From Candidatus Zhuqueibacterota bacterium (lineage in GTDB: Bacteria; Zhuqueibacterota; Zhuqueibacteria; Zhuqueibacterales; Zhuqueibacteraceae), in assembly GCA_022616415.1 (NCBI GenBank), contig JAKEEU010000105.1, forward strand, positions 1 through 64,000: a stretch of DNA of 64,000 bases, read 5' to 3'. The position numbers were made by a program, and so were the translations under genes. Under the pieces are notes generated by a model, which saw only the letters and a list, made by a program, of their open reading frames with translations, had not been told where the DNA came from and did not search any database. Shown piece after piece: positions 3,701 through 33,034 of the stretch. Within the stretch, counting starts at the first letter, position 1. The number at the start of each line of letters is the position of its first letter.

Positions 3701-3710
3701 ATGAATGGAT

Positions 3711-3789
3711 GACTGGAGTGATGGATCATTGGAGTAATGGAGTTATAAAGCTCCCAATACTCCATTAATCCAACACTCCATCACTCCAA
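3711..3789. repeat. Heptad (TGGAGTR/TGGATTR) inverted-repeat element, copy 1
   Basis: TGGAGTGATGGATCATTGGAGTAATGGAG...CTCCAATACTCCATTAATCCAACACTCCATCACTCCA between convergent genes. Confidence 0.85.
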
Positions 3790-8732: not shown

Positions 8733-10019
8733 ATGGACAAACTGCTCACCGTAATGCGCCGGGAGTTTCTCTCGCGCGTCAAAACCAAAGGTTTCATCAT
8801 CGGCACGATTCTCACGCCGGTCTTTCTGATCGCGATGATGGTGGTGCCGGGCTTGCTCTTGTTTCTCAAATCGGACAAACCCAAACAAATTGCCGTCATC
8901 GATCAGACCGGCGCCATTTTGGATTCCTTGACGTCTACTTTGAGCGAGAAGAATAAAGCGGGTGAACGTCTCTACAGTTTTATCAAACATGAAACCCAGC
9001 CGGAAAAAATTGAGGAAGAGAAAAAAGCGTTGTCCGAGCGAGTCAACCGCGGCGAGCTGGATGGTTACATCATCATTCCGGCGTCAATCTATGAGGACGG
9101 CCAGGCCGCTTACCGCGGCAAAAGCGTGACCAATTTCCGCGACAATAGCCGCATCGCGAACGCTATCAGCCGCGCGGTAACGGCGCGCCGCATTCAACAG
9201 AGCGGCTTGGAGGCGAAACAGGTTCGTCAATTAGTCCGCCGCGTGAATTTGAAGACTTTTCGCATCGCCGCAGGCGGCAAAGAGGAGGAAGACCAGGGGC
9301 GCACGAAAACGGTGGTTTGGATTTTGGTGGCGTTCATTTATATGGCGATGCTCGTTTATGGCCAAATGGTGATGCGAAGCGTGATTGAAGAAAAAAGCTC
9401 GCGCGTGATCGAAGCGGTGATTTCTTCGGTCAAGCCCTTTCATTTGATGGCCGGCAAAATTTTCGGCATCGGCGCGCTCGGCTTGGCGCAATATTCGCTC
9501 TGGGCGCTCGTCATGGGGCTGCTGTCGCATTATGGCGTCAAGATCATGGGCCTATCCGCCTCCAAGCTGACCAACGCCAAGTTTGCCATGCCGTCGCTCC
9601 CACCGGAAATCCTCGTATTCTTCATCGTCTTTTTTGTGTTGGGCTATCTTCTTTTCGCCGCCATGTATGCCGGCCTCGGCGCCATGGTTAATTCCGACCA
9701 AGAGGCGCAACAACTGGTTTTCCCGCTGGTGATGCTGGTCATCATTCCTTTCTTGTGTACCTTTTATATTATCGGCAGTCCCAACAGCCAATTGTCAGTG
9801 ATTCTCTCGCTCATTCCATTTTTTGCGCCCATCACCATGTTTGCGCGCATTGCGGCGCAAACGCCGCCGGCCTGGCAAATTGCGCTTTGCCTGACGTTGT
9901 TGGTGGCGACGATTTTTGGCACGATTTGGATCGTCGGCCGCATTTACCGCGTCGGCGTGTTGATGTATGGCAAGCGCCCGAATCTGCCGGAAGTGATCAA
10001 GTGGATCAAGTACGCCTGA
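8733..10019 (+). CDS. ABC-2 type permease (NatB-like)
   Basis: Multiple TM helices; MRREFLSRVKTKGFIIGT; SVIEEKSSRVIEAVISSVKPFHLMAGKIFGIG. Confidence 0.88.
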   Translation: MDKLLTVMRREFLSRVKTKGFIIGTILTPVFLIAMMVVPGLLLFLKSDKPKQIAVIDQTGAILDSLTSTLSEKNKAGERLYSFIKHETQPEKIEEEKKALSERVNRGELDGYIIIPASIYEDGQAAYRGKSVTNFRDNSRIANAISRAVTARRIQQSGLEAKQVRQLVRRVNLKTFRIAAGGKEEEDQGRTKTVVWILVAFIYMAMLVYGQMVMRSVIEEKSSRVIEAVISSVKPFHLMAGKIFGIGALGLAQYSLWALVMGLLSHYGVKIMGLSASKLTNAKFAMPSLPPEILVFFIVFFVLGYLLFAAMYAGLGAMVNSDQEAQQLVFPLVMLVIIPFLCTFYIIGSPNSQLSVILSLIPFFAPITMFARIAAQTPPAWQIALCLTLLVATIFGTIWIVGRIYRVGVLMYGKRPNLPEVIKWIKYA

Positions 10020-10022
10020 AGC

Positions 10023-10115
10023 ACTGGAGTGTTGGATTGATGGATTACTGGATTATTGGATTGATAAAATACTGCAAACCCCAACAATCCAATAATCCAA
10101 CAATCCATCACTCCA
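10023..10115. repeat. Heptad inverted-repeat element, copy 2
   Basis: ACTGGAGTGTTGGATTGATGGATTACTGGATTATTGGATTG...CCAACAATCCAATAATCCAACAATCCATCACTCCA. Confidence 0.85.
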
Positions 10116-10142
10116 AGATTTATTTAAGCAAGGAATAAACTC

Positions 10143-11423
10143 ATGGATAAGATGTGGACGGTGTTGCGGCGGGAATATCTTTCGCGCGTCAAAACCAAGG
10201 GATTTATCATTGGAACGATTACCTTGCCGCTTTTTATGCTGGCCATGTTTGTCGTGCCGGTGTTGTTGGTGTTTCTTAAAACGGACGAGTCGAAGGACAT
10301 CGTGGTGGTCGATCAAACCGGCGCCGTTTTTGATTCGCTCTACGCCGCATTGGATGAAACGAATGAGGCCGGAAAGCGGCTTTACAATTTTATCAAACAA
10401 GATGTCCTGGCCGCAGAGCTTGACACGGTTAAAGCCTCTTTGTCCGCGCGAGTGGATAGGGGCGGATTAGACGGTTATATCATCATCCCGGCTGCGGTTT
10501 TTGACAGTGCCGCGGCGGAATATTACGGCAAAAACGTGAGCAACGAGATCGAGAACGACGATTTTGAAGACGCCATCTCGGACATTGTGACGGCAATGCG
10601 CATCGAACGCAGCGGCTTGAACGCCGAGCAGGTCCATAAAATGGTTCGTCCGATCAACTTGAGCGTGAAAACCAGCGGCGAGGAGGAAAAGGATCCGGGC
10701 TTTACTTTTGTGATCGCCTATTTTCTCGGATTCTTCATCTATATCGCCATGTTCATTTACGGCGCCATCGTCATGCGCAGCGTGATCGAGGAGAAAGTCT
10801 CACGCGTCATCGAAGCGGTGATCTCCTCGTTGAAGCCGTTTCATCTTATGGCGGGAAAAATTTTCGGCGTCGGCGCCGTTGGGCTGACGCAATTTTTGAT
10901 TTGGGCGCTGGCGATGGGCTTGCTTTCTCTTTATGGCTTGCAGCTTGCGGGGCTCTTCGTTTCCGACCCGTCGAAGGTTCAAAGTGTCGATCTCCCCAGT
11001 ATCTCGCTGATGACTCTGGGGTTTTTCGTGCTCTTTTTCGTGCTCGGTTATTTTCTTTATTCGACTTTGTATGCCGGCGTCGGCGCGATGGTCAACTCCG
11101 AGCAGGAAGCGCAACAATTTCTGATTCCGGTCAGCTTGTTCATCGTGGTGCCGATTTTGATGATGACGTACATCATTACCAACCCCAGCAGTCAAACCTC
11201 GGTGATCATGTCTTTGATACCGTTTTTCGCGCCGATTATCATGCTGGCTCGCATCGTGGTGGAACCTCCGCCGTTCTGGCAAATCGCGCTCTCCATCCTG
11301 CTGATGGTCGCGGCGATTCTCGGCATGATTTGGGTGGTCGGCCGCATTTACCGCGTCGGCGTGTTGATGTACGGCAAGCGCCCGACCCTGCCGGAAATCA
11401 TCAAATGGATTAGATACGCCTAG
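10143..11423 (+). CDS. ABC-2 type permease (NatB-like), paralogue of the preceding gene
   Basis: Near-identical N- and C-terminal motifs (LRREYLSRVKTKGFIIGT; VVGRIYRVGVLMYGKRPTLPEIIKWIRYA). Confidence 0.88.
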   Translation: MDKMWTVLRREYLSRVKTKGFIIGTITLPLFMLAMFVVPVLLVFLKTDESKDIVVVDQTGAVFDSLYAALDETNEAGKRLYNFIKQDVLAAELDTVKASLSARVDRGGLDGYIIIPAAVFDSAAAEYYGKNVSNEIENDDFEDAISDIVTAMRIERSGLNAEQVHKMVRPINLSVKTSGEEEKDPGFTFVIAYFLGFFIYIAMFIYGAIVMRSVIEEKVSRVIEAVISSLKPFHLMAGKIFGVGAVGLTQFLIWALAMGLLSLYGLQLAGLFVSDPSKVQSVDLPSISLMTLGFFVLFFVLGYFLYSTLYAGVGAMVNSEQEAQQFLIPVSLFIVVPILMMTYIITNPSSQTSVIMSLIPFFAPIIMLARIVVEPPPFWQIALSILLMVAAILGMIWVVGRIYRVGVLMYGKRPTLPEIIKWIRYA

Positions 11424-11429
11424 CGCGAA

Positions 11430-11537
11430 GATGGAGTAATGGAGCGATGGAGTATTGGATTGTTGGAGTGATGGATTAATGGGTTTCCAGCAATCCAACA
11501 ATCCAGTACTCCAATACTCCAGCCAACCAACAATCCG
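11430..11537. repeat. Heptad inverted-repeat element, copy 3
   Basis: TGGAGTAATGGAGCGATGGAGTATTGGATTGTTGGAGTGATGGATTA...CAATCCAACAATCCAGTACTCCAATACTCCA. Confidence 0.85.
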
Positions 11538-17705: not shown

Positions 17706-20700
17706 ATGCGCACTATTTCTGAGCTCTCGCGAGGGCTGCTCGTCAGAGACTCTTCGCCGGCAAAGGATACGCCGGAACAGCGGAGATCAAAAGCCCGCCC
17801 TCGATTTGCCGCACGGGTCACGATTTTCCTTCGATTTTGTTCAACAAAAGCCCGAGCGCTCAGTGCTAATATTCGGCGCGGAGCAATTGCCTTTTTAACG
17901 TGGGCGCGTCACCTTCTCCGTCAGCTCTTGCCCAAGCTGGATAAAGCGGTGGATGTTTTTGGCGATCACAGTTTCGCACTGGCTAAATCAAGCTGGGCGC
18001 TGCTGCGCAAAATCTTTGCCTTCATCAGGCGGTTGCCGCGGCCAGTAGTGATCGCAATTGCCGTTTTGCTTTTTGTCGCAGTCGTGATTTTGGAGCTGCG
18101 TACTTCCTGGTTCGAGGCTCACTACTTGGCCAGCGCCGCGCGCAAGCTGACCTACCAAGTGGAACCAGGGCCAAGCCCAGCGATTCGCTTTCCCAGAACC
18201 GGCCCTTATGACGAGCGCCTCGGTTATACGCGCCTGCCGGATTTCATGGCTAAATTACACGCCAAAGGATACGCGGTTACAGCGCAAGCCCGCTTTGCTC
18301 CGCCGCTGCTCACGCTGATTGATATGGGTTTCTTTCCGATCTATCGCGAAAAAAGCCAGGCGCAGCTTGACATTTTGGGGCAGAATGACGAGCGTCTCTT
18401 TGTCTTTCAGAGTCCGCAGCGCGTCTATCCTGCGTATGATTCCATTCCAGATCTCGTCGTCAAGACTTTGCTCTTTATCGAAGATCAGGAACTGCTGGAT
18501 GACCGCCATCGCTATCGCAATCCGGCCATCGAATGGGATCGTCTGGGCAAGGCGACGTTCGATCAAAGCCGGAAGCTCGTGGATTGGGATTATCAGGCCG
18601 GCGGCGGCAGCACGCTGGCCATCCAGATTGAAAAATTCCGTCATTCGCCGGAGGGACGAACGGTGGGTGCGCGCGAGAAATTTCGCCAAATCGTTTCTGC
18701 TTCCTATCGCGCTTATCTCGATGGCGCGGAGACGCTCCAGGCCCGGCGCCAAATCGTTCTCGATTACATCAACTCGGTACCGTTGGCTGCCGTACCTGGT
18801 TACGGCGAAGTCAATGGCTTGCCGGATGGCTTGTGGGCGTGGTACGGCGTTGATTTTGAGACAGTCAATCGTCTGCTCCAAAACGGCTCGCCCCTCGGCA
18901 ATGAAGAGTGGGCGCGCGCGTACCGCCAGGTGTTGAGCTTGTTTCTCGCGCAACGCCGGCCCGATTACTATCTGCGCGAAAATCCCCAGGCGCTCACCTC
19001 GCTTACCGATGCTTACCTGCATTTATTGGCACAAGCCGGCATCATCTCAGCGCCAATGCGCGAAGCCGTGCTGAAAACCCAATTGGAGTTGCGTCGAACC
19101 GCGCCGCCAATCTCTGAAATTTCTTTCACGCAACACAAAGCCACCAATGCCATTCGCGCTGATCTGCTTAGGCTTTTGGAATTGCCTAGCTTGTACGAGG
19201 TGGATCGTCTGGATTTGACGGTGAAAAGCACGCTGCACCGCCAGACGCAGAAAGAAGTTTCGAGTTTTTTGCAACAACTGCGCGATGCGACACAAGTGCA
19301 CGGGGCGGGGCTGCAAGGTGACCATCTGTTGAATGGACGCGACCCCTCGGCCATCGTTTGCAGCGTGACGCTTTACGAGGCCGGACGGAACGCCAACTAC
19401 CTCCGCGTGCAAGCCGATAACTTTGACCAGCCATTGGATATTAATGAAGGCGTCAAGCTCGAGCTGGGATCGACCGCCAAGCTGCGCACGCTGATTACTT
19501 ATTTGGAGATCGTTGCGGATTTGCACAAAAGCTACGTGAGTTTTTCGCCGGCACAATTGCGCAAAACTCGCGTCCCCGCTGCCGACCATTTGAGCCAATG
19601 GGCGCTGCAGTATCTGGCGACGACGAAGGACAGTAGCTTGTCCGCGATATTGGACGCCGCCATGAATCGCCGCTATGCCGCCAGTCCGGCAGAGGCGTTC
19701 TTCACCGGCGGCGGCCTGCATACTTTTGAAAATTTCAACCGCCAGGACAATGGCCGCGTCCTGCCGGTACGCGAGGCGTTTCACCACTCCGTCAATCTGG
19801 TCTTCATTCGACTCATGCGCGACATCGTCAATTACTACATGTTTCAAGACTCGGCTGCCACCGCGCAGCTTCTGCAAAACGGCCAAGACCCCAATCGCAA
19901 GGCTTACCTGGCGCGGTTCGCGGATTACGAAGGCCGCAAGTTCGTGTCGCGTTTTTATCGCAAATATCGCGGCAAGCACGCGGACGAGGCGATGGAAGTG
20001 CTGCTGCAAAGCGTTTCGCCGACACCGGTTCGCCTGGCTACGATTTATCGCTCCGTTGAGCCGAATGGGGATACTACCGCGTTCGCCGCGTTCATGCAAC
20101 ATCGCCTGCCCAATGTGAAATTTTCGGACGAGCAAATCCGCCAACTCTATGCGAGCTATTCTCCGGCGGCCTACAGTCTGGCCGACCGCGGTGTTTTGGC
20201 GCACGTTCATCCGTTGGAGCTGTGGACGGTGGCCTATCTGCGCCACCATCCACAGGCTGGCCTCACCGAAGTCATCAATGCCGGGGCCGAAGTGCGGCAG
20301 GAGGTGTACGCGTGGCTATTCAATACCCAACAAAAGAATACGCAAGATAATCGCATTCGGACGATGCTTGAGATCGAAGCGTTTGAGGAGATTCACCGCG
20401 CCTGGCAGCGTCTCGGTTATCCGTTTGAAGCGTTGGTGCCGTCCTATGCGACGGCCATTGGCAGCTCGGCGGACCGGCCTGCCGCGCTCGCGGAGCTGAT
20501 GGGCATTCTCCTCAACGATGGCATTCGCCAACCCACGTTGCGAATTCGACAATTGCGTTTCGCCACAGGCACGCCTTACGAGACGATTTTGCAGCCGGAG
20601 CTGAAAGCAGGGGAACAGGTTTTGTTGCCGGAAATTGCGCGGCTGGTGCGGCAGGAATTGATCGGCGTGGTGGAGCAAGGCACGGCGCAGCGGGTGCGGA

Positions 20701-20981
20701 GCGCGTTCCAATTGCCGGATGGCCGCACGCTCGCCGTGGGTGGGAAAACCGGCACTGGCGACAATCGCTATGAGATTTACCGTCCCGAAACCCAATCCAA
20801 ATCCTGGCTGGAAAATCGCACCGCCACGTTTGTTTTCTTTGTCGGCGATCATTTCTTTGGCACGCTGACGGTGTACGTGCCCGGAGCCGAAGCACGCCAT
20901 TTCAGCTTCACCAGCGCGCTGCCGGTGCAGCTCCTCAAAATTCTCGCCCCCAAGCTCATGCCAATGGTGAGCGCCGAATGA
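17706..20981 (+). CDS. Large divergent bifunctional penicillin-binding protein (GT51 + transpeptidase)
   Basis: 1091 aa; TM PVVIAIAVLLFVAVVIL; GT51-like FIEDQELLDD...GGGSTLAIQIEKF; transpeptidase STAK, SVN, KTGTGDN. Confidence 0.82.
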   Translation: MRTISELSRGLLVRDSSPAKDTPEQRRSKARPRFAARVTIFLRFCSTKARALSANIRRGAIAFLTWARHLLRQLLPKLDKAVDVFGDHSFALAKSSWALLRKIFAFIRRLPRPVVIAIAVLLFVAVVILELRTSWFEAHYLASAARKLTYQVEPGPSPAIRFPRTGPYDERLGYTRLPDFMAKLHAKGYAVTAQARFAPPLLTLIDMGFFPIYREKSQAQLDILGQNDERLFVFQSPQRVYPAYDSIPDLVVKTLLFIEDQELLDDRHRYRNPAIEWDRLGKATFDQSRKLVDWDYQAGGGSTLAIQIEKFRHSPEGRTVGAREKFRQIVSASYRAYLDGAETLQARRQIVLDYINSVPLAAVPGYGEVNGLPDGLWAWYGVDFETVNRLLQNGSPLGNEEWARAYRQVLSLFLAQRRPDYYLRENPQALTSLTDAYLHLLAQAGIISAPMREAVLKTQLELRRTAPPISEISFTQHKATNAIRADLLRLLELPSLYEVDRLDLTVKSTLHRQTQKEVSSFLQQLRDATQVHGAGLQGDHLLNGRDPSAIVCSVTLYEAGRNANYLRVQADNFDQPLDINEGVKLELGSTAKLRTLITYLEIVADLHKSYVSFSPAQLRKTRVPAADHLSQWALQYLATTKDSSLSAILDAAMNRRYAASPAEAFFTGGGLHTFENFNRQDNGRVLPVREAFHHSVNLVFIRLMRDIVNYYMFQDSAATAQLLQNGQDPNRKAYLARFADYEGRKFVSRFYRKYRGKHADEAMEVLLQSVSPTPVRLATIYRSVEPNGDTTAFAAFMQHRLPNVKFSDEQIRQLYASYSPAAYSLADRGVLAHVHPLELWTVAYLRHHPQAGLTEVINAGAEVRQEVYAWLFNTQQKNTQDNRIRTMLEIEAFEEIHRAWQRLGYPFEALVPSYATAIGSSADRPAALAELMGILLNDGIRQPTLRIRQLRFATGTPYETILQPELKAGEQVLLPEIARLVRQELIGVVEQGTAQRVRSAFQLPDGRTLAVGGKTGTGDNRYEIYRPETQSKSWLENRTATFVFFVGDHFFGTLTVYVPGAEARHFSFTSALPVQLLKILAPKLMPMVSAE

Positions 20982-21018
20982 AAATTTTTTCATTTTGCTT
21001 TCACCAAAAATTCATTTT
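20978..21018 (+). promoter_or_regulatory. 11-bp-periodic TTTCAY element, copy C
   Basis: ATGAAAATTTTTTCATTTTGCTTTCACCAAAAATTCATTTT; repeats at 20988, 20999, 21010; overlaps the upstream stop codon. Confidence 0.75.
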
Positions 21019-21150
21019 GCGGCGGTAAAATAACTGTTTGAGCAAAAAAACTTGCTAAACAGATCGAATTAGAAAAACGAAAACCCAGCCATGATTCCCC
21101 GTTCATCTTGAAGAAAATCGGGGCCGACGGAAAATCCGCCGAAAAAAATC

Positions 21151-21179
21151 TTGCAAATTATGAATTGAATGAGTATAAT
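21151..21179 (+). promoter_or_regulatory. Putative sigma70-type promoter of the hyf-like operon
   Basis: TTGCAA-17 bp-TATAAT. Confidence 0.55.
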
Positions 21180-21225
21180 TTTATGTTGTTGAAAATGTTA
21201 TATCGTACCAATTTGGAGTAACAGG

Positions 21226-21939
21226 ATGCAACTCAGCGTGAGGGATGCAGCGCAGTTGCTGCACGTCTCAGAAAAAACCGTTTACCGCTGGATTCATAAA
21301 GAAGATTTGCCGCATCATCGTGTCAACGAGCAGTATCGCTTCAACCGAGTAGAACTACTGCAGTGGGCCACTGAGAACCGCCGCAAAGTCGCGGCTGATA
21401 TTTTTCAAGAACCGGAAAACGGCAACGGGACTCCCCTGAAACTTTCCGACGCCATTCTCAACGGCGGAATTTTTTACCGCCTCTCCGGCAACGATAAAAA
21501 ATCCGTGCTCGAAGCCGTGGTCGAAACCATGCCGCTGCCGCACGAAGTGGATCGCGAGTTTCTCTTGCACGTCATGTTGGCGCGCGAAGAGCTTGGCTCC
21601 ACCGGCATCGGTGACGGCATTGCGATTCCGCACGCGCGCAATCCCATCGTTTTGCACGTCAAAAAGCCGAGCGTCTCGCTCTGCTTTTTGGAGAAACCCA
21701 TCGACTTTCAGGCGTTGGACGGCAAGCCGGTGTCGATTTTGTTTACCCTGCTCAGCCCCAGCGTGAGGGTGCACCTCAATCTGCTGGCGAAATTATCTTA
21801 CGCCTTGCGTGATGAAAAACTGTTGGCATTGCTCAAAGCGCCTGGCAGCTCCGAGGAAATTCTCGCCGAAATTCGCCGTATCGAAGACGCTCTGCCGCAG
21901 CCGCAAGCGACCCGCGCGGAAGGAGCGCTGTCCGAATGA
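21226..21939 (+). CDS. Excisionase-type HTH fused to PTS EIIA-like domain
   Basis: LSVRDAAQLLHVSEKTVYRWIHKEDLPHHRVNEQYRFNRVELLQWA plus EIIA GIGDGIAIPHARNPIV. Confidence 0.88.
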   Translation: MQLSVRDAAQLLHVSEKTVYRWIHKEDLPHHRVNEQYRFNRVELLQWATENRRKVAADIFQEPENGNGTPLKLSDAILNGGIFYRLSGNDKKSVLEAVVETMPLPHEVDREFLLHVMLAREELGSTGIGDGIAIPHARNPIVLHVKKPSVSLCFLEKPIDFQALDGKPVSILFTLLSPSVRVHLNLLAKLSYALRDEKLLALLKAPGSSEEILAEIRRIEDALPQPQATRAEGALSE

Positions 21940-23927
21940 CAATTTTTCTCGGTGCGCTCGCCATCATGGTGGTTGGCGGCGTCATGGCGTTATTTTTCCA
22001 ACGCCAACCTCGCAGCGCTTTGACGATTGGTTTTGGCAGCGCCGCACTCGGATGTATCGCCGGCTTGTTTCCGGCAATACAAACGCTCTTCGACGGCGAG
22101 GTGCTCATGTTTCGCCAGCCGTGGCGCGTGCCTTACGGCGAGCTTTTCTTGCAAGTGGACGCGCTGTCGGCGTTTTTCCTGCTCGCCATTTTCGGCCTCG
22201 CGTTCTTTGCTGCAATATACGGCCACGAATATTTGCAAGCATATCAGGAACGCAAACGCCTCGGCGCCGCGCTCTTCTTTTTTAACCTGCTCATTGCGGC
22301 CATGGCAATCGTGGTGACGGCGCGCAACGGCATGCTTTTTCTCGTGGCGTGGGAAGTCATGTCCCTGGCCTCATATTTTTTGGTGAGCTTCGAGCACGAG
22401 CGTCCCGAAGTGCGCGCCGCCGGCTTTACCTACTTGGTCGCCACCCACCTCGGCACCGCATTTCTCTTGGCCATGTTCGTTTTGGCGGCACGCGAGACTG
22501 GCTCGATGAGCTTCGATCTATTCCACCAGCTTGCCGCGCTCTCGCCCGCCACTGCCGGCGCATTGTTTGTTTTGGCCATCATCGGCTTTGGCACCAAAGC
22601 CGGTTTCGTGCCGTTCCATGTTTGGCTGCCGGAAGCGCATCCCGCCGCACCCAGCCACGTTTCCGCGCTGATGTCCGGCGTCATGATCAAAACCGGCATC
22701 TACGGCATTCTGCGGATGCTGACTTTTCTCGGCCCGCCGCCGGCGTGGTGGGGCGTCGTGCTTTTGGTGATCGGCGCGGTCTCCGGCATTCTGGGCGTCA
22801 TCTTTGCACTGGCGCAGCACGATCTCAAGCGCCTGTTGGCGTATCACAGCGTGGAGAATATCGGCATTATCGCCCTCGGCATGGGGGTGGGCTTGCTCGG
22901 GCAAACAACGGAGCAGCCGCTTGTGAGTGTTGCCGGTTACGCGGGCGCGTTGTTTCACGTGCTCAATCACGCCATGTTCAAAGGCTTGCTCTTTTTCGGC
23001 GCGGGTTCGGTCTTGCACGCGACTTCGACGCGCGACATGGATCATCTCGGCGGCTTGTTGAAGCACATGCCACGCACGGGTATCACCTTTTTGATCGGCG
23101 CGGTGGCGATTAGTGGCTTGCCGCCGCTCAACGGCTTCGCCAGCGAATGGCTGATTTACAACGGCATGTTGCGTGGCGGCTTGCTCATCAATGGAACCAA
23201 AGATTTGCTTTTGGTTTTCTCCGCCGTCGCTCTCGCTTTCATCGGCGGTCTGGCGCTGGCCTGTTTCACCAAAGCCTTTGGCATCGTCTTTCTCGGCGAG
23301 CCGCGCAGCGGCCACGCGCAGCACGCACACGAAGCCGGCTGGCGCATGCGTCTTGCGATGACCGCGCTCGCGGCCGGCTGCGTGATTTTCGGTCTCCTCC
23401 CGATGTCAGCCATGTTTTTGGTTTTGCCGGCCGTGCGCTTGCTGGCGTCATTTCCCGAAGATGTGCTAACACCGTTGTTGCAGCCTTTGTGGTACATCAG
23501 CCTCGGCGCGGCAGGCATAGTCGCGGGCATTCTCTTTTTCGTTTGGCTGCGTCGCGCCATCCTCCGCCGCCGTGCCGTCTCCACTACCGTCACGTGGGGT
23601 TGTGGCTATGCTCTTCCCACCGCGCGCATGCAATACACCTCATCTTCGTTTGCGCAGCCGGTGGTACAATTTCTCACCACGGTTTTGCGCCCACAGGAAA
23701 AAATCGAACGGCTGGCGGGATATTTTCCCCCGCCGCGTGGAGCCACTTTTGCGACGGCAGCAGCCGATTTCGCGAAGCACCTTTTTTATCAACCCGTATT
23801 TGTCAAGATCAAAAATCTCACCCATCGTCTGCACTGGCTGCAGCACGGGCGCGTTCATCTTTATCTGCTTTATATTTTTCTCACGTTGATCGCGCTCTTG
23901 CTGTGGAAAGGAGGCGTGCTAAGATGA
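21936..23927 (+). CDS. Proton-conducting membrane subunit, HyfB-like
   Basis: 663 aa, many TM; ATHLGTAFLLAMF, AHPAAPSHVSALMSGVMIKTGIYG, LAYHSVENIGIIALG, HVLNHAMFKGLLFFGAGS. Confidence 0.92.
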   Translation: MTIFLGALAIMVVGGVMALFFQRQPRSALTIGFGSAALGCIAGLFPAIQTLFDGEVLMFRQPWRVPYGELFLQVDALSAFFLLAIFGLAFFAAIYGHEYLQAYQERKRLGAALFFFNLLIAAMAIVVTARNGMLFLVAWEVMSLASYFLVSFEHERPEVRAAGFTYLVATHLGTAFLLAMFVLAARETGSMSFDLFHQLAALSPATAGALFVLAIIGFGTKAGFVPFHVWLPEAHPAAPSHVSALMSGVMIKTGIYGILRMLTFLGPPPAWWGVVLLVIGAVSGILGVIFALAQHDLKRLLAYHSVENIGIIALGMGVGLLGQTTEQPLVSVAGYAGALFHVLNHAMFKGLLFFGAGSVLHATSTRDMDHLGGLLKHMPRTGITFLIGAVAISGLPPLNGFASEWLIYNGMLRGGLLINGTKDLLLVFSAVALAFIGGLALACFTKAFGIVFLGEPRSGHAQHAHEAGWRMRLAMTALAAGCVIFGLLPMSAMFLVLPAVRLLASFPEDVLTPLLQPLWYISLGAAGIVAGILFFVWLRRAILRRRAVSTTVTWGCGYALPTARMQYTSSSFAQPVVQFLTTVLRPQEKIERLAGYFPPPRGATFATAAADFAKHLFYQPVFVKIKNLTHRLHWLQHGRVHLYLLYIFLTLIALLLWKGGVLR

Positions 23928-24841
23928 ACACCCGCATCGTGGCCTGGTTCTTCGTTCTGCTCGCGCTGCTTGTGGCGCCTTTGCTGTTGGGAATCATCAA
24001 TAAGACCAAAGCGCTGTTCGCCGGACGCCGCGGCGCGCCGTTGTTGCAACCGTATTATGACGTAATCAAGCTCCTGGGCAAGGGCGCGGTTTACAGCCAG
24101 AGCACCACGTTTCTTTTCCGCGCCGGCCCCATCATCTCGCTTGTCTCTATTATCATTGCCCTGCTGCTGCTCCCGCTTGGCGGAAAAACTGCCGCGCTGG
24201 CATTTACCGGCGATCTGATTCTCTTTGCGTACGTGCTCGGCTTGGTACGCTTTTTTACCGTAACGGCAGCATTGGATACGGCTTCGAGCTTCGAAGGCAT
24301 GGGCGCCAGCCGCGAGGTGTTCTTTTCCGCGTTCGCCGAGCCGGCGTTGTTTTGCGGTCTCATCGTTTTGGCCAAAAGCACCGGCGCGTTATCGCTGAGC
24401 GAAATGCTCGGCCCGGCTCTCGCGCCGGTTTGGAAAGTGAACGCCGCGCCGCTGGTTCTGATCGTGCTCAGCTTGTTGGCGATTTTACTGGCGGAAAACT
24501 CGCGCATTCCCGTGGACGATCCCAACACGCACCTCGAGCTCACCATGATTCACGAAGTGATGGTGCTCGACCACAGCGGCCCGGATTTCGCTTTCGTGCA
24601 ATACGGCGCCGCGCTGAAATTGCTGCTCTCCGAAGCCCTGCTCGTGCGCATACTCATGCCGGTTGCCAGCGACAATTTGTATGTGGCCACGGGAGTTTTT
24701 CTCGCGGGCCTGGCGGGAATCTCCATTCTCGTCGGTGTCGTCGAATCCGTCATGGCGAGATTGCGCTTGCTCGTCGTGTCGCGATTTTTAGTGGCGGCAA
24801 CGATTATCGCGGCGTTTGCGATTGCGTTAGTTGTAAAATGA
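23924..24841 (+). CDS. NuoH/HyfC-like membrane subunit
   Basis: GRRGAPLLQPYYDVIKLLGKGAV; ENSRIPVDDPNTHLELTMIHEVMVLDHSGPD. Confidence 0.92.
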   Translation: MNTRIVAWFFVLLALLVAPLLLGIINKTKALFAGRRGAPLLQPYYDVIKLLGKGAVYSQSTTFLFRAGPIISLVSIIIALLLLPLGGKTAALAFTGDLILFAYVLGLVRFFTVTAALDTASSFEGMGASREVFFSAFAEPALFCGLIVLAKSTGALSLSEMLGPALAPVWKVNAAPLVLIVLSLLAILLAENSRIPVDDPNTHLELTMIHEVMVLDHSGPDFAFVQYGAALKLLLSEALLVRILMPVASDNLYVATGVFLAGLAGISILVGVVESVMARLRLLVVSRFLVAATIIAAFAIALVVK

Positions 24842-24892
24842 CGGGCTTTCTTATACAACCAAATTCAGAAAAAATTCTAAAAATTTTATGCC

Positions 24893-25122
24893 ACCAACTG
24901 ATAGATGAAGACCAACGGATAATCCCGCCACAGCGGGACCAACGGTTTAATCAATTTACCGTAATGATCCAGCGAAGCCCACGGCCGTAGGCTTTGCTTT
25001 AAATCTTACAGGCGCAGCCGACGAAAAATAATTTTCCCAACTGATAGAAACAACGCAACGGATGAAAAAATTATATCCGTTGCGTTGTTTCAATCCGTTG
25101 GCCAGTTTTATCCGTTGGGTAA
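24893..25122. repeat. CAACGGATAGAAACAACGCAACGGAT hairpin element, copy 1
   Basis: CAACTGATAGAAACAACGCAACGGATGAAAAAATTATATCCGTTGCGTTGTTTCAATCCGTTGG. Confidence 0.8.
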
Positions 25123-25175
25123 TTTCTTTAAAACCCAAAACCGCCCCTGAAGGGACTACTACAAACGAAATAAAC

Positions 25176-25817
25176 ATGCAAGCGCTCAACACCATTCTCA
25201 TCGGCATCATTCTGATCGACTTTTTTCTGTTGGCCACCGGCCGCCTCTCCGCCTTCATCAACGCGACGGCGTTGCAGGGGGCAGTGCTCGGCGTCGCGAT
25301 TCTCCTAATTGCCGGCACCTTGTCTTCGTGGCATACCGTGTTGTTGGCCGGCGGCATGGTGGGATTGAAAGGCTTTATTATTCCGCGATTGCTCTTTCGC
25401 GCCATTCGTCAGGCGAAAATCCGCCGCGAGGTCGAGCCGCTCATCGGTTTCACGGCCTCGCTGCTCATCGGCATTCTCATCGTGTTCTTCGCCTTCTGGC
25501 TGGCGGCGCGATTGCCTTTGCCCATGCCGACGCCGGCGCCATTGCTCGTTCCGGCCGCTTTCACGACGTTGATGATTGGCCTGCTGATCATCGTCAGCCG
25601 CACCAAAGCCTTGACGCAAGTGGTCGGCTATCTCGTCATGGAAAACGGCATCTTCCTTTTTGGACTCGCCCTCGCCGAAGGCATGCCCCTTCTCGTCGAG
25701 CTTGGCATCTTGCTGGACGTGTTCGTCGCCGTGTTCGTGATGGGCATCGCCATCTATCACATCAATCACGCCTTCGATGACATCGATGCGGAGAAGATGA
25801 CGATGTTGCGGGGGTGA
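25176..25817 (+). CDS. HyfE-like membrane subunit
   Basis: NuoK-like multi-TM protein; LTQVVGYLVMENGIFLFGLALAEGMPLLVELGILLDVFVAVFVMGIAIYHI. Confidence 0.88.
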   Translation: MQALNTILIGIILIDFFLLATGRLSAFINATALQGAVLGVAILLIAGTLSSWHTVLLAGGMVGLKGFIIPRLLFRAIRQAKIRREVEPLIGFTASLLIGILIVFFAFWLAARLPLPMPTPAPLLVPAAFTTLMIGLLIIVSRTKALTQVVGYLVMENGIFLFGLALAEGMPLLVELGILLDVFVAVFVMGIAIYHINHAFDDIDAEKMTMLRG

Positions 25818-25824
25818 AAAAACT

Positions 25825-25933
25825 TTGGAGTGATGGATTGATGGAGTGATGGATTGATGGAGTGATGGATTACTGGAGTATTGGAGACGCATCAATCCAT
25901 TAATCCAACGATCCAAAAATCCAGTAATCCAAC
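25825..25933. repeat. Heptad inverted-repeat element, copy 4
   Basis: TTGGAGTGATGGATTGATGGAGTGATGGATTGATGGAGTGATGGATTACTGGAGTATTGGAG...ATCAATCCATTAATCCAACGATCCAAAAATCCAGTAATCCAA. Confidence 0.85.
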
Positions 25934-25947
25934 CATTTTGTGAATTT

Positions 25948-27387
25948 ATGTTGCTAATTGCATTGGTGCTCACGCCGATGGTTGCGGCGGCAATGGCTTT
26001 TTTGCTGCGCTCACGGTCGTTGGGCCGGATCTTGTTGATTGGAACCGCTGTTGTGCACGCCGCGCTCGTTGCCGCGTGCTGGTGGCAAAATCCCGCGCCG
26101 GATTTCAGCGGCTGGCTGATGCTTGATGCGTTGGGGCTGGTGTTCCTGAGCATCACCAGCGCGCTCTTTTTGTTGGTGGCGATTTACACGCTCGGCTATT
26201 TGCGCGAAGAGACGCACGGTAATCAAGGCGTCTTCATTGCCTCGTTGCTCTTTTTTCTCGCCGCGATGACACTGGTCACCATCAGCCATCACATCGGCCT
26301 GCTGTGGGTCGCCATCGAGGCCACCACTTTGGCCAGCGCGCCGCTGATTTATTTTCATCGCTCACCCCGCTCTCTTGAAGCGATGTGGAAATACCTGCTC
26401 ATCTGCTCGGTCGGCATCGGCCTGGCCTTGCTCGGCACGCTGTTTCTCGGCGTCGCCGCGACTGATGCCAGCCATGAAAGCATACCGATCGTCCTGAATA
26501 GTCTGGTGGAGCAGGCGAGCCGGTTACATTTAAATTGGCTCAAGCTCGCCTTCATTTTTCTGCTCATCGGCTACGGCACAAAAATGGGGCTGGTGCCATT
26601 GCACACCTGGCTGCCGGACGCCCACAGTGAAGCGCCTTCACCGGCCTCGGCGTTGCTCTCCGGCGCGCTGCTCAACTGCGCGTTTCTCGGCGTGTTGCGC
26701 TTCTATCAAATTTGCATGGCTGCCGGCATTGCCGAGTTTGTCCAACAATTGTTGGTGTTGTTCGGATTGTTGTCGCTCGGCGTCGCTGCGGCTTTCATCG
26801 TCGGCCAGAGCGATTTCAAGCGCATGCTGGCGTATTCGAGCGTCGAGCACATCGGCATTCTTTCGCTCGGCGCCGGCCTTGGTGGCGCCGGTGTTTATGG
26901 CGCCATGCTGCACGCCGTCAATCATTCCGTCACCAAAGGCCTGCTGTTTTTGGTGGCGGGTAATCTTCTGCTTTTTTATCGCAGCAAAATGATCAACGAT
27001 GTGCAGGGCGTGCTCCGGCATTTGCCGATCACCGGCATTTTGCTGCTGGCGGGATTTCTCGCCATCACCGGCTCGCCGCCCTTTGGCCTGTTCCTGAGCG
27101 AACTCACGATTTTAAAATCCGCGTTCGATGGCGGCCACACATTGGCCGCGGCGCTTTATCTGCTCTTTCTCGCCGTCGCGTTTATCGGCATGGCCGCCGC
27201 GGTGATCAAAATGGCCCTCGGTGAGGCCCGCGCTCCTGAAACCTCGGCAAAACCGCGCGAGTCGTTCTTGCTGATTTTTTCACCGATAACGCTCGCGGGA
27301 ATCGTGCTGCTGTTGGGCCTCTATATTCCGGCGCCGCTCGAGGCCCTTCTCCGCCGCGCCGCCGAAATTTTGGGAGGTGGCTTGTGA
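25948..27387 (+). CDS. Proton-conducting membrane subunit, HyfF/NuoN-like
   Basis: GYGTKMGLVPLHTWLPDAHSEAPSPASALLSGALL; LAYSSVEHIGILSLG; HAVNHSVTKGLLFLVAG. Confidence 0.92.
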   Translation: MLLIALVLTPMVAAAMAFLLRSRSLGRILLIGTAVVHAALVAACWWQNPAPDFSGWLMLDALGLVFLSITSALFLLVAIYTLGYLREETHGNQGVFIASLLFFLAAMTLVTISHHIGLLWVAIEATTLASAPLIYFHRSPRSLEAMWKYLLICSVGIGLALLGTLFLGVAATDASHESIPIVLNSLVEQASRLHLNWLKLAFIFLLIGYGTKMGLVPLHTWLPDAHSEAPSPASALLSGALLNCAFLGVLRFYQICMAAGIAEFVQQLLVLFGLLSLGVAAAFIVGQSDFKRMLAYSSVEHIGILSLGAGLGGAGVYGAMLHAVNHSVTKGLLFLVAGNLLLFYRSKMINDVQGVLRHLPITGILLLAGFLAITGSPPFGLFLSELTILKSAFDGGHTLAAALYLLFLAVAFIGMAAAVIKMALGEARAPETSAKPRESFLLIFSPITLAGIVLLLGLYIPAPLEALLRRAAEILGGGL

Positions 27388-28904
27388 ACGAAAAGCATTA
27401 TGCCCAAATTCGCAACGGCCAGGCCATTAGCGTCGCGCAAATGCCGGCTTTGCCGATTGAAATTTTTCGCCAAGCCATTTTGGCCGCCGTGCAAGAAGGT
27501 TGCCGGCTGGCCGCCTATTTTGGCGCCGCGCCCTCGTCAAAGCAGGTGAAAATTTTTGCTGTACTGGCGAACGACATCAATAACGAGCTTTTCGTGCTGT
27601 CGACGCCTGTTGGCGAATCTTATCCCGCACTAACGCCGGATTGCCCGCAGGCACATCTCTTCGAGCGCGAGCTGGCGGAGAATTTCGGCGTGCGACCGGA
27701 AGGGCATCCGTGGCTGAAGCCGGTGCGCTATCACCAATCCTATCGCAGCGGCCATACCTTATGGCCCGAAGTTGAAAACAAAGTCATCCCAGGCGACTAT
27801 CCTTTTTTCCAGCTCGAGGGCGAAGAAGTCCACGAAGTGGCCGTCGGCCCGATTCACGCGGGGATTATCGAGCCTGGACATTTTCGTTTTCAATGCCACG
27901 GCGAAAAAGTTTTTCATTTGGAAATTCAACTCGGCTATCAACACCGCGGCGTCGAGCCGGCGATGAGAGGCGGGCCGAGTAAGCGGTCTCTCGTGCTCGC
28001 GGAATCCATCGCCGGTGACACGGTGATCGGCCATGCTTCGGCGTATTGCCAGGCGGTGGAAGCGTTGGCCGCCTGCCACATTTCACCCCGCGCTCAAGCG
28101 CTGCGGGCGATAGCGTTGGAGTTGGAGCGCACCGCCAACCACGTCGGCGATCTCGGCGCGCTTGCCAATGATGTCGGCTTTTTGCCCGGCGCTTCCTATT
28201 TCGGACGCGCGCGGGGTGACATACTCAACTTGTCCGGCGTGCTGTGCGGCAATCGTTATGGCCGCGGTATGTTGCGGCCCGGCGGCGTGCATTTTGATTT
28301 GCCGCCGGAAATAGAAAACGATTTTTTGCGCCGATTGGAGCGCGCTGACAAGCAGCTCACCGAGATAGCCGTGATGCTTTTTGAAAAGCCGTCAGTGCTC
28401 TCTCGTTTTGAAAATACCGGCCCAGTGAACGCCAATGATGCCAAAGCTCTTGGCTTGGTCGGTCCGGCAGCGCGCGCCTGCGGGTTGGAAATTGACGTAC
28501 GCCACGATCATCCGCATGGCATTTATCGCGTCGCGCATATTCCAGTGGCGCGCGGCGAAACCGGCGACGTGCATGCCCGCGCGTTGGTGCGTTGGCTCGA
28601 AGTGCAGCGCTCGCTCGAGTTTCTCCAATCGCAAATTCGCGATCTGCCGGAAGGCCAATTGCACAAAGAATGCGGAACGATGCGGCCCGAGCATTTCGTC
28701 GTGAGCATGGTCGAAGGCTGGCGCGGGGAAATCGTGCACATGGCACAAACCGATGCCGCCGGCAAATTTTCACATTACAAAATTATCGATCCCTCGTTTC
28801 ACAATTGGACCGGCCTGGCGATGGCCTTGCGCAATCAACAGATTTCGGATTTTCCATTGTGCAATAAGAGTTTCAATTTGTCGTATGCAGGACATGATCT
28901 GTAG
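27384..28904 (+). CDS. HyfG-like large subunit (NuoC/NuoD-like), no NiFe CxxC motifs
   Basis: NuoC-like N-terminus; YQHRGVEPAMRGG...ESIAGDTVIGHASAYCQAVEAL; C-terminus IIDPSFHNWTGLAMAL without CxxC. Confidence 0.88.
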   Translation: MNEKHYAQIRNGQAISVAQMPALPIEIFRQAILAAVQEGCRLAAYFGAAPSSKQVKIFAVLANDINNELFVLSTPVGESYPALTPDCPQAHLFERELAENFGVRPEGHPWLKPVRYHQSYRSGHTLWPEVENKVIPGDYPFFQLEGEEVHEVAVGPIHAGIIEPGHFRFQCHGEKVFHLEIQLGYQHRGVEPAMRGGPSKRSLVLAESIAGDTVIGHASAYCQAVEALAACHISPRAQALRAIALELERTANHVGDLGALANDVGFLPGASYFGRARGDILNLSGVLCGNRYGRGMLRPGGVHFDLPPEIENDFLRRLERADKQLTEIAVMLFEKPSVLSRFENTGPVNANDAKALGLVGPAARACGLEIDVRHDHPHGIYRVAHIPVARGETGDVHARALVRWLEVQRSLEFLQSQIRDLPEGQLHKECGTMRPEHFVVSMVEGWRGEIVHMAQTDAAGKFSHYKIIDPSFHNWTGLAMALRNQQISDFPLCNKSFNLSYAGHDL

Positions 28905-28906
28905 GA

Positions 28907-28945
28907 AGTTTGCCAGTTGGCCGGTTTGCCAGTTGGCCTGTTGAT
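28907..28945. repeat. Tandem GTTTGCCAGTTGGCC repeat
   Basis: GTTTGCCAGTTGGCCGGTTTGCCAGTTGGCC. Confidence 0.7.
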
Positions 28946-28993
28946 CAGTCGAGTGTTTTTAAAATTTTACGTTTTTCGCCTTACGTCTTACAC

Positions 28994-29752
28994 ATGCTAA
29001 AAGTTCTTCAAACCCGAATCCACCAACCCTCGATAAAACGTTTCCCTCAGAACGATGTCGAATGGCCCGAGCGCTTTCGGGGGCGTCCGACTATTGATGC
29101 CACCAAATGCCCGGACGGCTGCCGTGCGTGCGCCGATGCTTGCCCGACGGATGCGATTATTTTTAATGGCAAAGCAACGATCGATCTCGGTCGCTGCTTG
29201 TTCTGCCAGGAATGTGTGGCAGCCTGTCCCGAAGGCGCGATTCAATATACCAAAGATTATCGTCTTTCCACTCGTGCGCGCCAGGATTTGATTTTGCACG
29301 ACAACGAAATGAAATTGGCGCAAGCGCTCGACGAAAAAATGCGCCAACTCTTCGGCCGCTCGCTGAAGCTGCGCTCAGTTACCGCCGGAAGCTGCAATGG
29401 CTGCGACCTCGAGCTGCAAGCGCTGAATAATGTCGTTTTTGATATGCTGCGCTTCGGCATCGACATCGTTGCATCGCCGCGCCACGCCGACGGCCTGATC
29501 GTCACCGGCCCGGTGAGCCATAACATGGCGTTTGCGTTGCGCGAGGCTTACGCGGCAGTTCCGGAGCCGAAAATCGTCATCGCTGTTGGCGCCTGCGCTC
29601 TCAGCGGCGGCCCATTCCGCGATTTGCCGGAAGTCCACAACGGCGTTGATGCCTTTCTGCCGGTTGATCTTTACATCGCCGGCTGCCCCCCGCATCCGAT
29701 AACGATATTGGATGGTTTGTTGCGGCTATTGGGGAAGCTGGCAAAAAGCTGA
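28994..29752 (+). CDS. HyfI/NuoB-like small subunit with N-terminal 2x[4Fe-4S] ferredoxin domain
   Basis: CPDGCRACADACPTDAI and CLFCQECVAACPEGAI; SCNGCDLELQAL, GACALSGG, AGCPPHP. Confidence 0.92.
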   Translation: MLKVLQTRIHQPSIKRFPQNDVEWPERFRGRPTIDATKCPDGCRACADACPTDAIIFNGKATIDLGRCLFCQECVAACPEGAIQYTKDYRLSTRARQDLILHDNEMKLAQALDEKMRQLFGRSLKLRSVTAGSCNGCDLELQALNNVVFDMLRFGIDIVASPRHADGLIVTGPVSHNMAFALREAYAAVPEPKIVIAVGACALSGGPFRDLPEVHNGVDAFLPVDLYIAGCPPHPITILDGLLRLLGKLAKS

Positions 29753-32960: not shown

Positions 32961-33034
32961 GGGCGATTAGCTCAGTTGGTTAGAGCGCCAGTATCACAAA
33001 CTGGAGGTCACTGGTTCAATTCCAGTATCGCCCA
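32961..33034 (+). tRNA. tRNA-Val(CAC)
   Basis: GGGCGAT acceptor pairs ATCGCCC; anticodon arm CCAGT-ATCACAA-ACTGG; T arm ACTGG-TTCAATT-CCAGT; CCA not encoded. Confidence 0.92.

Follow-up and report, generated by a model that had tools for sequence, protein, structure and literature searches.

The described system closest to the elements reported here is the intervening sequence (IVS) of 23S rRNA with its S23p open reading frame (ORF). In Coxiella burnetii, a PF05635-family ORF (23S_rRNA_IVP, hereafter IVP) is bounded by terminal inverted repeats forming a long stem, and tandem heptamers (GACAGAT) are found just upstream of the ORF (PMC4990558). The S23p structure from Xanthomonas is described as a homopentameric toroid (PMC4990558). 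Avd, the accessory protein of diversity-generating retroelements, is an earlier example in which this fold works with nucleic acid; homology has been reported between BPP-1 Avd (4DWL) and PF05635 (2GSC) (PMC10053308).

Two further systems invite comparison. REP/REPIN sequences are small extragenic palindromes dispersed in one genome, and the related RAYT gene is flanked by the same sequence (PMC3116915); the elements below differ in having a PF05635 rather than a Y1_Tnp partner and arms made of 8-nt arrays, and true REP/RAYT loci are present separately in the same genome. TAACTGA heptamers of marine Beggiatoaceae are likewise short tandem intergenic units found at many places, for which a post-transcriptional role has been proposed, yet they are direct repeats, mostly pointing toward start codons, and lack a paired arm, and the text searched mentions no IVP (PMC4679880).

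The elements analyzed here come from a 64,000-nucleotide stretch of Candidatus Zhuqueibacterota bacterium (the window), which is contig C325 of the source genome (G000). They are like the 23S rRNA IVSs in anatomy, as the long form has a PF05635/S23p ORF between terminal inverted repeats and the short form is an ORF-less hairpin. In contrast to those IVSs, their arms, which are arrays of a short unit, show no copy-specific covariation, and ORF-less copies are found scattered between genes. Stable stems are predicted for them, and excision from the transcript by RNase III, a feature of 23S rRNA IVSs, is putative here. We do not class them as rRNA IVSs, because a location in 23S rRNA was looked for and no rRNA match (Rfam) was found in the 40 IVP loci scanned or at the window copies. 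We assign a probability of roughly 60% to the reading in which the repeats belong, as ORF-less members, to an IVS-like family of elements whose full form has a PF05635 gene between inverted short-unit arrays. The open-access papers searched do not describe arrays flanking IVP genes outside rRNA.

Four Array Hairpins in the Window

A preliminary description had listed four hairpins built of heptad-type units of 7–8 bp and starting within about 10 bp of an upstream stop codon. All four are present at the stated positions, and each starts 5–8 bp past a stop; the arms are indeed unit arrays, but the true period is 8 rather than 7. The unit is the octamer TGGAKTNN (K = G/T), with six near-constant bases followed by two variable ones, and TGGATC and TGGAGC occur as variants. 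All four hairpins lack an ORF and are given without strand.

Hairpin 1 (3706..3788) lies between convergent genes, 7 bp past the stop, with a left arm at 3714-3745, a right arm at about 3755-3788 and a degenerate unit, TGGATGAC, before the array (fold z −5.65). Hairpin 2 (10025..10115; z −7.31) starts 5 bp past the stop, has its arms at 10025-10064 and 10084-10115, and sits between the tandem paralogous genes 8733-10019 and 10143-11423. Hairpin 3 (11432..11537; z −7.31) follows the second of these genes, 8 bp past its stop, with a left arm at 11432-11479 and a right arm at 11490-11521 whose degenerate extension reaches 11537. The two paralogues (8733-11423), whose proteins are 59% identical, are thus each followed within 8 bp on the 3′ side by a TGGAKT hairpin. 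Hairpin 4 (25826..25931; z −5.07), the copy on which the preliminary description centered, starts 8 bp past the stop and has eight units in its left arm (25826-25889), a degenerate right arm at about 25892-25931, and the start of the next gene at 25948. It is located in a codirectional gene run (20000-29700); paralogues of the 25948-27387 product are encoded both in the window and at other places in the genome, and the protein, judged from paralogy only, resembles membrane antiporter or NADH-dehydrogenase-type subunits. The RNA folds of the four copies are far more stable than those of shuffled sequences (z −5.1 to −7.3). A scan of the window with Rfam at gathering score matched no family at the hairpins, the sole match being a tRNA gene at 32961-33034.

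Abundance and Placement in the Source Genome

The four copies are genuine and exceed chance expectation by far. A three-unit pattern has 455 matches (270 + 185) in the 10.27 Mb of the source genome, where the reversed control pattern has none. In a 1.22 Mb sample of this genome, whose contigs were partly picked for bearing elements, 39 arrays were found, 25 of them with both arms, compared with none in the reversed-sequence control. With genes called by a simple home-made codon-model caller, 38 arrays could be classified by context: 36 lie between codirectional and two between convergent genes, and none between divergent genes, for which the null is 18.6%. The placement after stop codons claimed from the window alone holds in this sample as well, as 25 of the 38 arrays (66%) lie no more than 15 bp from a stop codon, against 4.9% expected, and arrays start at a median of about 10 bp after it. 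The TGGAKT arrays of this genome are dispersed extragenic palindromes.

The Partner Gene of the TGGAGT-Type Arrays

On contig C61 of the source genome, a PF05635 gene, of the family encoding a four-helix bundle, lies between an F-array and an R-array that are separated by about 580 bp. This gene, the sole TGGAGT-type IVP found in the genome, has an internal stop. The same order of F-array, IVP gene and R-array was found in G064, a relative from the KSB1 phylum, and in a Limisphaerales MAG. A profile built from these three proteins and run on 48 hairpin-bearing genomes gave 14 loci of the TGGAGT subfamily (one of them, L216, being the Limisphaerales locus again). Among these best 14 loci, 13 are directly flanked on each side by TGGAGT-type arrays and at one, L213, only the upstream array is seen, whereas the two-sided TGGAGT layout was seen at none of 16 generic IVP loci. 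Arrays of one type surround one IVP subfamily in several phyla, namely Verrucomicrobiota, Deltaproteobacteria, Calditrichota, Planctomycetota and KSB1, and the IVP loci of two members of the bacterium's own phylum are also present in named KSB1 MAGs, which suggests that this phylum is KSB1.

All 13 aligned subfamily members match PF05635 and TIGR02436, and among solved chains 2gsc comes closest (E = 3e-13). The closest pair has an omega of 0.12, which shows purifying selection on the IVP gene; more distant pairs are saturated at synonymous sites. The IVP tree has two clades (100/100), poorly resolved within, in each of which the phyla are mixed, a topology consistent with horizontal transfer.

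About 33 of the 48 genomes with TGGAGT hairpins, most of them incomplete MAGs, show no TGGAGT-type IVP. Hairpins thus persist without a visible intact IVP partner and, given the broken gene of the source genome and the many hairpin-bearing MAGs without an IVP, may outlive the gene. Among 289 Verrucomicrobia genomes, TGGAGT arrays were found in 4 of the 13 with the IVP and in 17 of the 276 without (Fisher P = 0.0097). Of the 14 Verrucomicrobia IVP hits, a less biased sample that was not picked by hairpins, most have GGA-type or other unit arrays by eye, but only six pass the strict inverted-repeat threshold.

Unit Dialects Follow IVP Subfamilies

Inverted arrays are a feature of IVP genes more generally. 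Arrays of 7–9-nt units in inverted orientation (score ≥ 13) flank 50 of 69 IVP loci, taken largely from genomes picked for TGGAGT hairpins and including a few duplicates, compared with 1.5% of 206 control ORFs. The Bacteroidota, again less biased, gave a similar picture, with 19 of 29 loci not picked for hairpins passing; among off-centre controls from these loci, 1.8% passed. PF05635 was found in 45 of 61 Bacteroidota genomes, at up to 16 copies per genome, and some of these genes are only a few kb apart (e.g., G470 C14:220758-226839). The orientation of IVP genes was considered as proof of insertion at the RNA level, an argument that is weakened by the host genes being mostly codirectional as well: 40 of 45 upstream neighbours are codirectional with the IVP gene, near the Bacteroidota host baseline (22/29).

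The units at other IVP genes include GCTGGTT, GCAAGTSG, ATCAGTG, CTGGATG and AAAAGC, among others. Similarity in this dialect correlates with similarity of the proteins (Mantel r = 0.73, n = 47), also when the TGGAGT subfamily is left out (r = 0.54, n = 35), and none of 2000 permutations reached either value. Unit dialect and IVP subfamily are thus co-inherited. ORF-less hairpins of other dialects are present in the source genome and in its relative G081, and several match the dialects of IVP genes (TCAGT, CAAGT, CGTAA, CTGGT). The source genome also has CGCAAAG/CACAAAG hairpins (C329:96120-96200 and 116045-116130), an array dialect with no IVP gene identified, and a hairpin with CCAACGGAT blocks and variable-base spacing, which occurs three times in the 1.22-Mb sample (C78:157570, C61:84690 and C350:18300).

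Spread, Turnover, and a Possible Host Regulon

The TGGAGT pattern is distributed very unevenly in the bacterium's own phylum, with 13 of 82 genomes carrying it. Across 84,980 genomes, a scan gave at least 107 stretches of the same hairpin anatomy, mostly with two to four units per arm, and among the matches listed these come mostly from Deltaproteobacteria, Verrucomicrobia, KSB1, Calditrichota, Bacteroidota, Lentisphaerae and Planctomycetota. Phages were considered as the vehicle, but the hairpin pattern was found in only one of 2.9 million viral contigs, so that the elements are not mainly phage-borne.

The elements turn over at orthologous junctions. At all five junctions of G081 at which both flanking genes are orthologous, the TGGAKT array is absent, and three or four of these junctions hold another array or hairpin; that of hairpin 2 has a hairpin of a different dialect. 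No TGGAKT element follows the orthologue of gene 10143-11423 in G081 or G079, and no TGGAKT units were found at the hairpin 4-related junctions in G078 and G079. In G079, a CGCAAAG/CACAAAG hairpin lies 3′ of the orthologue of gene 10143-11423 (L279). Neither a target-site duplication nor a clean empty site was found, the orthologous junctions being too diverged or occupied by other arrays. With MITEs of DNA transposons in view, the ORF-less and the IVP-bearing elements have arms in common, but the IVP is not known to act as a transposase and no target-site duplication could be read.

The main rival to the reading as IVS-like elements holds that the intercistronic hairpins are selected by the host, the hairpins forming the regulon of an IVP that binds RNA as a regulator or processing factor and acting in mRNA stability, RNase III cleavage or translational uncoupling, rather than being selfish. 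The tight codirectional placement right after stop codons, with no array between divergent genes, would suit such a regulon, as would the very stable folds, the purifying selection on the IVP, and the junctions of the relative, which keep an array hairpin of another dialect as if the slot outweighed the sequence. Against it, copy density differs about 30-fold between two congeneric genomes (G000 with 41 TGGAKT arrays per Mb, G081 with 1.3, from partly selected samples), the element is missing at every one of the five orthologous junctions, and one dialect and IVP clade is found across unrelated phyla, for which selfish horizontal spread is the better fit. We regard a host regulon as rather unlikely.

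The Unit, Not the Stem, Is Conserved

The arms of the elements had been proposed to keep their pairing by compensatory change during copy-number slippage, with a lack of covariation across copies named as a finding that would refute it. Three tests found no such covariation, and compensatory pairing is rejected. By RNA duplex energy, an element's left arm fits its own right arm no more tightly than right arms taken from elsewhere in that genome, whether ten genomes are pooled (−10.96 vs. −11.00 kcal/mol per 8 nt, pooled P = 0.63) or the source genome is taken alone (P = 0.12), and unit-level tests within the source genome detected no excess complementarity, either at the K position or at the spacers. 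In other genomes the spacers had seemed to be deficient in complementarity, a result that was not robust when retested at the unit level. The arms are complementary because both are built of one unit in inverted order; it is the unit that is conserved, and not a copy-specific stem. Slippage itself is supported only in part: some arrays show expansions of 16-bp (two-unit) blocks, but in the source genome neighboring units have the same spacer in 9 of 110 cases, below the 17.4% expected.

The same data bear on an origin by simple-sequence expansion, in which slippage and template switching at quasi-palindromes would form the arrays without a trans-acting factor. Such an origin would account for the 16-bp expansions of several arrays and for pure tracts such as (TGGAGTCT)11 in L035, but template switching predicts the best match between own arms, which is not seen, and the occurrence of one unit in unrelated phyla, tied to an IVP subfamily, as well as the lack of arrays between divergent genes, also argues against it, which leaves this origin quite improbable.

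The tetranucleotide GGAG, found in some RAYT-linked REPs, is contained in the units, the palindromes are extragenic and dispersed in a REP-like manner, and the source genome has ten Y1_Tnp matches, but movement as REP/REPIN elements by a Y1 (RAYT) transposase is rejected as hardly credible, since the eight Y1 loci examined have no TGGAKT arrays and several have ordinary REP-type palindromes (GTAGCCCC..., CCCGTAGGGG...), a Y1 gene is present in only two of 107 named loci and in neither between the arms, and the partner found is PF05635. The Y1_Tnp (RAYT-like) genes of loci L139-L145 (contigs C377, C352, C280, C78, C308, C426 and C205), several of which are flanked by the classic REP-type palindromes GTAGCCCCGCCCCCTTGTGGGG, CCGTCCGGGCGG and CCCGTAGGGG, represent a second repeat system in the source genome.

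Proposed Mechanism and Implications

Taken as part of an IVS-like family linked to PF05635, the hairpins look like the ORF-less form of a little-described, mobile-element-like family. The IVP, whose nearest solved relative reportedly forms a homopentameric ring (PMC4990558), probably recognizes its unit, and we propose that it would bind this unit repeatedly along the array. TRAP-type rings bind tandem RNA triplets, recognizing motifs at regular intervals whose spacers are not conserved; the parallel is an analogy only, as TRAP is an unrelated protein and binding by the IVP is putative. Such binding would allow propagation of the element itself and, in trans, of ORF-less hairpins that share its dialect, and/or would protect the transcript. 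Protection of mRNA 3′ ends and attenuation, put forward in the preliminary description, are putative roles. Intergenic sites behind stop codons within one transcript would be used because an insert there could be accommodated as a hairpin loop in the RNA, just as 23S rRNA IVSs are. A further-reaching version, which we put forward only tentatively, is that IVPs are widespread small RNA-centred mobile elements outside rRNA, in which the pentameric ring would read a subfamily-specific 7–9-nt unit with variable spacers in the manner of TRAP, protein and dialect would co-evolve, and ORF-less arrays of the same dialect would be mobilized or regulated in trans between operon genes.

The S23p-type proteins of Coxiella are described as being without known function (PMC4990558), and members of PF05635 abound in the groups covered here. 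As most of the tested PF05635 genes lie between inverted arrays of a subfamily-specific unit, these arrays are a candidate substrate for the family, and the pairing of array and IVP makes PF05635 function directly testable by binding assays. The pairing also explains a class of intergenic short-unit hairpins, and it extends the puzzle of the IVSs from rRNA to mRNA-encoding operons.
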